From contig JAFEAI010000281.1 of assembly GCA_018266475.1 (NCBI GenBank), positions 1 through 56,891 of the forward strand: a stretch of 56,891 bases of DNA, written 5' to 3'. Below the pieces are notes generated by a model. It was not told the DNA's origin. It did not search any database and saw nothing but the letters and a program-made list of their open reading frames with translations. Both the position numbers and the translations under genes were made by a program. Each line of letters begins with the position of its first letter. The first letter of the stretch is position 1. Source of the DNA: Bacteroidota bacterium. GTDB taxonomy: Bacteria > Bacteroidota > Bacteroidia > Flavobacteriales_F > PHOS-HE28. Positions 49,227-51,356 of this stretch are shown one piece after another.

Positions 49227-49477
49227 GCCGGCAAAGTTGCGGCCCGTGTCACAAATTCGGGGAATCGTTCAAGCTGCACAAGCGCCTCAACGTCGCCAAG
49301 GGCGCCACCCGCCTGTTCAACTTCTTCGAGGTGAGCGTTCACCTGATGCAGGTGATGGCCTGCGCCTGCGGGCACAACCAGCTCAACCTGTTCAACAAGG
49401 AGGATATTTCCAGCTGGCACAAGGAACTGGCGGAACTGGCCGGGATCGAATGGTCCGGGTTTGACCCGGGGCGATAA
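49225..49477 (+). pseudogene. Small conserved-looking protein, probable frameshift
   Basis: The frame ending at 49477 reads KLHKRLNVAKGATRLFNFFE, then VSVHLMQVMACACGHNQLNL and SSWHKELAELAGIEW with strongly G/C third positions, so it looks coding, but it has no start codon in that frame. ATG 49225 starts a different frame (MPAKLRPVSQIR). Skipping one G in the GGGG run at 49258-49261 would join them into a protein of about 83 residues. I do not recognise the family. Either a real frameshift or an assembly error. Confidence 0.5.
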
Positions 49478-49599: not shown

Positions 49600-49812
49600 T
49601 TGGACATCAACCGGGAAAAGCTCACCCTCATGGGCGTGCAGTTCCCTGACCTCCGATCGTTGGAACGCACGGCAACCGCAATGGCCAGCAATATGTTCGA
49701 AGGGTTCGAGCCTTCCAGGGAGTTGATCCAGCTCTACCTGGAATGGAAGGATGGCGGCATCACCGATGCAGAACTGGTGGCCGAGCTCCATTCCATCTAC
49801 GATGGAAAATGA
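49600..49812 (+). CDS. VbhA-like Fic antitoxin
   Basis: 70 residues from TTG 49600, or 60 from ATG 49630. The central ASNMFEGFEPSRELIQLYLE matches VbhA-type antitoxins, and SNMFEG (Ser30, Glu34, Gly35) fits the inhibitory (S/T)xxxE(G/N) motif whose Glu blocks ATP in the Fic active site. The C-terminal helix GGITDAELVAELHSIY is also family-like. It silences a Fic AMP-transferase. The toxin ATG at 49802 overlaps its end by 11 nt, the usual order, but the toxin is truncated. Confidence 0.7.
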   Translation: MDINREKLTLMGVQFPDLRSLERTATAMASNMFEGFEPSRELIQLYLEWKDGGITDAELVAELHSIYDGK

Positions 49813-49950: not shown

Positions 49951-50140
49951 TGTGGCTCCTGTATCGGTCGTATTCCGTTCCCGGTTATATTCGTTGGCTC
50001 AAAGCCATTCCGCCCAACCACCCCAATGGGAGCTTCACCACGTTACGCCTGTGGGCGCACCACCACCGGTCGCTTTAGGAGTTAGCTGCCATACAATGAC
50101 AACACCAAGAAAAAACAATCATAACTAAAACAAGGAAAAC

Positions 50141-51202
50141 ATGAAACGATTCTTCTTAAAAAGCGCGCTACCTGCTATCATTGCAATAGTGATGCTGACC
50201 ATTTCAACCAAGTCAGAAGCCTGTACCAGAGTTGTATACAAAGGTCCAAACGGTACTGTTATCACTGCACGAAGTATGGATTTTTCAATGGAGATACCCG
50301 CAAATATATGGCAATTTCCACGTGGTATAAAACGAGAGGGACAAACCGGAGCAAACACAGTTAAGTGGACCTCCAAATACGGAAGCATTGTTGTCAGTTC
50401 GTGGGATATTGCTGTTTCTGACGGGATGAACGAGAAAGGACTTAATGCGAATATGTTATGGTTGAACAATTCAAAGTACCCACCATTTGAAAAAGATGGA
50501 AACTCGAAAGGGCTTGCAGTATCGTTATGGGCACAATATGCGTTGGATAATTTCGCCACTGTGAAAGAAGCGGTTGAACAATTCAGAAAAGAAGAATTTG
50601 TTGTGGTTACGGACTTTATACCCGGAACAGATAAATATACGACTATCCACCTTTCATTGTCCGACCCAACAGGAGACAATGCAATCCTTGAATACATCAA
50701 CGGAAAATTGGTGATTCATCACGACCCTTCCTATACGGTAATGACCAATGACCCAATCTTTGAGGAACAATTGGCCATCAATGAATATTGGAAAGAAATA
50801 CCCGGCAAAATTTTCCTTCCAGGCACCAATAGGGCTGCCGATAGGTTTGTACGTGCGTCTTATTATATCGACGCAATTCCACAAACCGACAATACTCGAG
50901 TTGCCGTAGCAAGTGTATTTAGCGTAATAAGAAATTGTTCTGTTCCCTATGGAATTTCCACCGAGGGATTTCCTAATTTATCGACAACCAGATGGAGAAT
51001 AGTCGCCGACCAAAAGAATATGGTTTACTATTTTGAAGATGCGCTAAGTCCCAATGCGGTATGGGTAGATTTTAAAAAATTGGACTTCAGCCAATCAACG
51101 GGAAAGGTAAAAAAACTCTCTTTGGACAAACAACAGATTTATGCCGGTGAAACATCCGATAAATTTGTTGTTACAAAACCATTTGTGTTCCAAGGAATTT
51201 AA
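50141..51202 (+). CDS. Linear amide C-N hydrolase, choloylglycine hydrolase/penicillin V acylase family
   Basis: 353 residues. Signal peptide (about 1-27) ends before CTRVVYKG; maturation would expose Cys28 as the N-terminal nucleophile of the Ntn fold. Family motifs: GTVITARSMDF, VVSSWDIAVSDGMNEKGLNANMLWL, NAILEYINGKLVIHHDPSYTVMTNDP, YIDAIPQT and RWRIVADQKNMVYYFEDAL. Members cleave bile salts, penicillin V or acyl-homoserine lactones. The gene is AT-rich (AAA, ATA, TTA codons) in a GC-rich genome, a clear sign of recent transfer. Periplasmic. Confidence 0.92.
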   Translation: MKRFFLKSALPAIIAIVMLTISTKSEACTRVVYKGPNGTVITARSMDFSMEIPANIWQFPRGIKREGQTGANTVKWTSKYGSIVVSSWDIAVSDGMNEKGLNANMLWLNNSKYPPFEKDGNSKGLAVSLWAQYALDNFATVKEAVEQFRKEEFVVVTDFIPGTDKYTTIHLSLSDPTGDNAILEYINGKLVIHHDPSYTVMTNDPIFEEQLAINEYWKEIPGKIFLPGTNRAADRFVRASYYIDAIPQTDNTRVAVASVFSVIRNCSVPYGISTEGFPNLSTTRWRIVADQKNMVYYFEDALSPNAVWVDFKKLDFSQSTGKVKKLSLDKQQIYAGETSDKFVVTKPFVFQGI

Positions 51203-51224
51203 CAATGGGATTAACTGTACGAGG

Positions 51225-51356
51225 AGCTAACGAGGTATTGCCGAAAACGGAGGTGAACAGCTTCCATTGGACGTTTGTGCAATGCTCGACTTTCGTTCTT
51301 CGATAGAACCCTTGTGCTGAAAATCCCCGCCTTCTGCAATACCTAAACCGTTATCC
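51225..51356 (+). other. attC-like recombination site
   Basis: R''-type core AGCTAAC (51225-51231) and R'-type core GTTATCC (51350-51356) enclose 132 bp. Next to the cores AGGTATTGC (51234-51242) pairs perfectly with GCAATACCT, and TAACG pairs with CGTTA, with a few unpaired bases, as in folded attC sites. The centre holds CAGC...GCTG arms. GTTATCC is not a perfect GTTRRRY match. Confidence 0.5.

Follow-up and report, generated by a model that had tools for sequence, protein, structure and literature searches.

The question raised by this locus is how a single gene of low GC content came to lie, framed by two complementary heptamers, in a Bacteroidota genome. The window (the whole stretch of DNA analysed, 56,891 nucleotides) has a GC content of 63%, compared with 41% in the segment of ~1.27 kb at 50082–51350 (+), in which a hydrolase gene and a 132-bp 3' element form one unit. 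The gene (50141–51202, +) encodes a CBAH / linear amide C-N hydrolase of 353 amino acids (PF02275, E=3.9e-45). An N-terminal leader is predicted from its sequence and from knowledge of the family, with Cys28 as the nucleophile at the N-terminus of the mature enzyme. A sequence-only reading had proposed a one-gene, integron-like cassette on account of GTTAGCT at the left junction (50081–50087, +) and AGCTAAC behind the gene (51225–51231, +), and these heptamers, also located by a cassette finder, are confirmed as reverse complements, with a right-hand GTT at 51350. Such a 7-bp match is by itself weak evidence; the full architecture, comprising complementarity to the own start, L arms, spacers and CGTT, has a single instance in the window, and none was seen on either strand of 12 dinucleotide shuffles. 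The answer favoured here, with a probability of about 90%, is that a Bacteroidota integron system placed the segment, as a lone gene cassette of integron type, at a secondary site outside any array.

The limits of this mobile cassette are marked by homology that is shared between hosts and bounded by unrelated flanks. A protein search identified near relatives in Parapedobacter, a Bacteroidetes MAG, two Sphingobacterium and Proteiniphilum; at the DNA level, identity to the window cassette is 92–95% in four hosts and 84% in S. wenxiniae. The alignments start at 50081 in four hosts, a few bases earlier in Sphingobacterium T2, and end at 51343–51354 in the five other hosts. The earlier reading held that relatives of the gene with different or no flanks at these points would speak against a cassette. 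The relatives found keep the end points of the unit, the flanks beyond them are unrelated in every host and homology stops at G|TT on both sides. The heptamer at the right junction (51350–51356, +), GTTATCC, had been taken as the R' box of what would be an unusual, little-described type of attC. In the other cassette hosts it reads GTTAGCG, GTTGGGC, GTTACAA, GTTAGTG or GTTGAGA and, since it varies by host, TTATCC belongs to the target, leaving only the G as cassette-derived; the circular form (TTAGCT ... G) should therefore have GTTAGCT as its R' box. In Proteiniphilum, the hydrolase cassette is the first beside a divergent tyrosine recombinase and, in Parapedobacter, it is the second in an array that also adjoins a divergent recombinase. 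Second copies of the 3' site are present in the Parapedobacter and S. wenxiniae loci. Weeksella possesses the hydrolase gene (86%) with the site absent, indicating that some copies do not travel as a cassette.

The 3' element (51225–51356, +) has the organization of an attC site, with R'' at 51225–51231, L'' from 51233, L' to 51344 and R' at 51350–51356, as assigned from folds, alignment and covariation. On either strand, none of 200 shuffled versions folds as well (z = -3.86), and folding of the bottom strand, recommended in the earlier reading, yielded an attC-like hairpin. Across 46 aligned sites, 92.8% of stem cells are paired, versus 35–43% when the partner is slid, and two-sided changes occur in 16 of 17 stem pairs; most of these sites were found partly through outer-stem complementarity, so that outer pairing is partly selected and not independent, while the inner pairs and the model matches in other genomes were not chosen in this way, the inner pairs being freer of bias. 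A covariance model, whose training set includes the window site, scores it at 81.5 bits. The stem is more stable on the bottom strand in 44 of the 46 sites, and a nearly invariant A.C mismatch of the top strand (44/46) becomes a G.T pair on the bottom strand. Site length is very constant, with 118 nt between the boxes. Among 44 consecutive pairs of sites, which were not selected on this feature, R'' is complementary to its own cassette start for 7 nt or more in 28, and to the adjacent R' in three. The inner part of the site (51259–51333 in the window, alignment A1) contains repeats of roughly 19–21 nt of a TTTGTGCTTC-like motif, nearly constant in length.

The element, which lies behind a gene as an inverted repeat and folds on both strands, could also be a terminator or another transcribed repeat that accompanied a horizontally acquired gene and has no part in recombination. 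However, R'' pairs with the distant cassette start and not with the adjacent R', the breaks in homology fall at G|TT on both sides and the conserved A.C mismatches turn into G.T pairs on the bottom strand only. In addition, a search of Rfam at gathering thresholds produced no match to the element, and this explanation is considered extremely improbable. The reading as an integron-like cassette is upheld by the hairpin site, by the shared ends within unrelated flanks and by the presence of the element behind unrelated genes in other genomes (L004–L008, L038, L083 and L086), where a search had been advised.

Such sites are widespread in Bacteroidota. The covariance model has matches in 32 of the 45 genomes from the genus and in 192 of 395 Bacteroidota species (E <= 1e-4), with at most eight candidates scored per genome in the phylum scan. 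Five genomes from outside the phylum gave no match, and three of these (Alishewanella, Lysobacteraceae and Verrucomicrobia) contain an over-cutoff canonical IntI. Five genomes of the same genus carry copies 78–84% identical to the window site and, at G017:C30 and G037:C1, also of this genus, chained cassette arrays directly follow a tyrosine recombinase. Each chained cassette begins with GTTnnnn, complementary to its own R'', and the genes carried are varied, including cation efflux, MerT/HMA, alpha/beta hydrolase, metallo-beta-lactamase fold and SIR2-like proteins. Five sites occur in the genome of the window itself; among them are a small array on contig C170 and, on contig C18, a one-cassette array beside a truncated recombinase. 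Short GTTnnn...nnnAAC palindromes that contain no ORF occur at or near the ends of arrays (L083 125–164; L038 2810–2844 and 4209–4243; L005 after 1634), and one cassette (L086 13700–15053) encodes a relative of the tyrosine recombinases with a degraded active-site motif.

Relatives of the G017 recombinase are present in 110 of 395 Bacteroidota genomes (E <= 1e-50). In 31 of the 50 loci that have at least 1 kb downstream of the recombinase, the first cassette, on the same strand, begins 33–180 bp past the stop codon, and the chains run to as many as five cassettes; shuffled sequence gave six stray matches in all. The sequence beside the first cassette, a candidate attI, is conserved in one recombinase subfamily (e.g. 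TGCGYATATT). The orientation of the recombinase varies by lineage, being divergent from the array (L033/L036) or pointing into it (L083, L086 and others). Many of these enzymes possess an extra N-terminal domain, e.g. residues ~1–62 in L036 (1685–2749, −) and also in L085, with a weak match to DUF5710; a low-confidence predicted model gives it a beta-beta-alpha-beta-beta-alpha order, and shorter recombinases apparently do without the domain. The AlphaFold model of the Proteiniphilum recombinase has a pTM of 0.32.

The array recombinases are distinguished from canonical IntI by the absence of the ~42-residue IntI-specific insertion (I2). Their first catalytic Arg is separated from HxLRH by 89–94 residues, compared with 131–132 in canonical IntI and 89–98 in Xer, and an alignment to VchIntIA (2A3V) skips residues 172–248, where the array recombinase has 33. 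Their best NCBIfam match is NF040815, and none of the 45 genomes of the genus reaches the TIGR02249 cut-off. In a phylogenetic tree, the array recombinases and canonical IntI are split together from Xer with a support of 100/100. Canonical IntI forms one of several branches in this group, the order of which is unresolved, so that a gain of I2 in canonical IntI and a loss of I2 here are indistinguishable.

These features bear on the possibility that a canonical cassette, belonging to a system with an I2-containing IntI and an attC with extrahelical bases, has strayed into Bacteroidota, e.g. from Gammaproteobacteria. The overall plan is alike. As in class 1 integrons and Vibrio superintegrons, each cassette has one gene and an attC hairpin ordered R''-L''-L'-R', with crossover at G|TT and a bottom strand that folds better, and cassettes are chained beside a tyrosine recombinase and an attI, here a candidate one. 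Despite this, the genus gives no over-cutoff TIGR02249 match, the model of the Bacteroidota sites finds nothing in the three genomes with canonical IntI, and the near-identical copies of the cassette that were found all belong to Bacteroidota. The sites also differ: the L'' arm has no extrahelical bases and the consensus stem of the 46 sites has no bulge. The element thus forms the attC-like hairpin expected in the earlier reading and yet departs from a standard attC, given the missing extrahelical bases and the partner integrase that has no I2. The stem itself is symmetric and the central spacers are asymmetric, measuring about 2 nt next to R'' and 6 nt next to R', whereas in canonical sites the cassette finder put each arm at roughly 8 nt. 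When class 1 plasmid loci served as its controls, the finder missed part of the canonical attC sites, probably on account of stems that extrahelical bases split. The constant site length and the recombinase often directed toward the array are further differences from canonical integrons, and a stray canonical cassette is largely refuted and very improbable.

A different proposal is that the cassettes move by hijacking XerCD, as CTX phage does through its single-strand site, with no dedicated integrase. The array recombinases resemble XerA/Xer proteins (NF040815, XerC, XerD) in the length of the catalytic core and in having no I2, and a stem free of extrahelical bases is the type of XerCD substrate used by CTX (PMC4792948). 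Weeksella (G449, e.g. L281) has 31 attC matches, many of a 190–196 nt class, and a dedicated recombinase was not found in that assembly. However, in many families the distance between the array and a dedicated recombinase is short and fixed, and these enzymes adjoin cassette arrays, group with IntI and not with XerC/D, and in many cases carry the extra N-terminal domain. XerCD hijacking is therefore judged improbable, and a dedicated Bacteroidota recombinase remains the preferred agent.

The system would work like an integron, yet I2 and the extrahelical bases, both among the features that define the IntI class, are absent; judged on sequence, it is a variant of that class and not a member. 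I2 has not been identified outside integron integrases, where it accommodates the extrahelical bases (PMC4792948); their joint absence here is coherent. In canonical sites, the first extrahelical base mainly sets the choice of strand and, when these bases are missing, the central spacer can impose it (PMC2727003). In the Bacteroidota system, strand and direction may likewise be marked by the asymmetric central spacer. A broader model, to which we give even odds, is that of a phylum-wide integron class in which the recombinases never gained I2, the attC sites never gained extrahelical bases and spacer asymmetry chooses the strand. Such a class would be a surviving form of the stage before I2 that has been put forward in accounts of how integrons arose.

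Integrons have been described as rare in Bacteroidota, with IntegronFinder 2.0 reporting one complete example, in Salinibacter ruber (PMC9024848), and integrases without the additional domain were left out of an early survey (PMC2426708). The sites found here point to an apparently undescribed type of integron in about half of the sampled Bacteroidota species; a search of the open literature, with subscription papers and preprints outside its scope, found no description of it. A system that lacks I2 and extrahelical bases opens the origin of single-strand cassette recombination to direct testing. It would also mean that a large route of gene exchange, with one copy carried on a plasmid, is still unmapped in a phylum that is common in guts, soils and wastewater. 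The plasmid in question, a mobilizable one of Pontibacter kalidii (L169 7656–14208), bears a recombinase of the family and six chained cassettes, whose attC sites are short, with 40–53 nt between the boxes.

How the cassette reached its position in the window can be considered in this light. One attC is present at the locus, fewer than the two or more, with no integrase, by which a CALIN is defined. The locus resembles a CALIN or lone attC in that the contig has no integrase, and differs in having a Bacteroidota-type attC and, elsewhere in the genome, an intact recombinase that matches this type. The earlier statement that no integrase is nearby is accurate for the contig, C201, where there is no TIGR02249 match among the matches listed, and does not extend to the genome, as a different contig (G000:C249) encodes an intact recombinase of 370 residues. 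This protein shares 83% identity with the recombinase of G042:C288, behind which lies an array with attC sites of the same type, and 57–59% with the two beside the hydrolase cassette in other hosts. Acting in trans, it is the likely enzyme of the insertion. The candidate attI at G000:C249 reads ...TGCGCATATTAAGGA|GTT and the left flank in the window ...CGCTTTAGGA|GTT. TTTAGGA before the left junction resembles the attI core TTAAGGA of the genome's own integrase locus; the likeness is short, and suggests that the cassette was inserted in trans into a secondary site similar to attI. A search through the hutH flank in relatives did not find the exact empty target, the locus being rearranged there with a different neighbour. 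At 49274–49468 of the window, a gene that is complete next to hutH in G033 and G022 is reduced to its final ~65 codons, indicating that the window locus has itself been rearranged. Just upstream of the cassette, at 49600–49812 (+), an ORF for which no Fic partner was recognised encodes a VbhA-like antitoxin (PF18495, E=1.3e-7).
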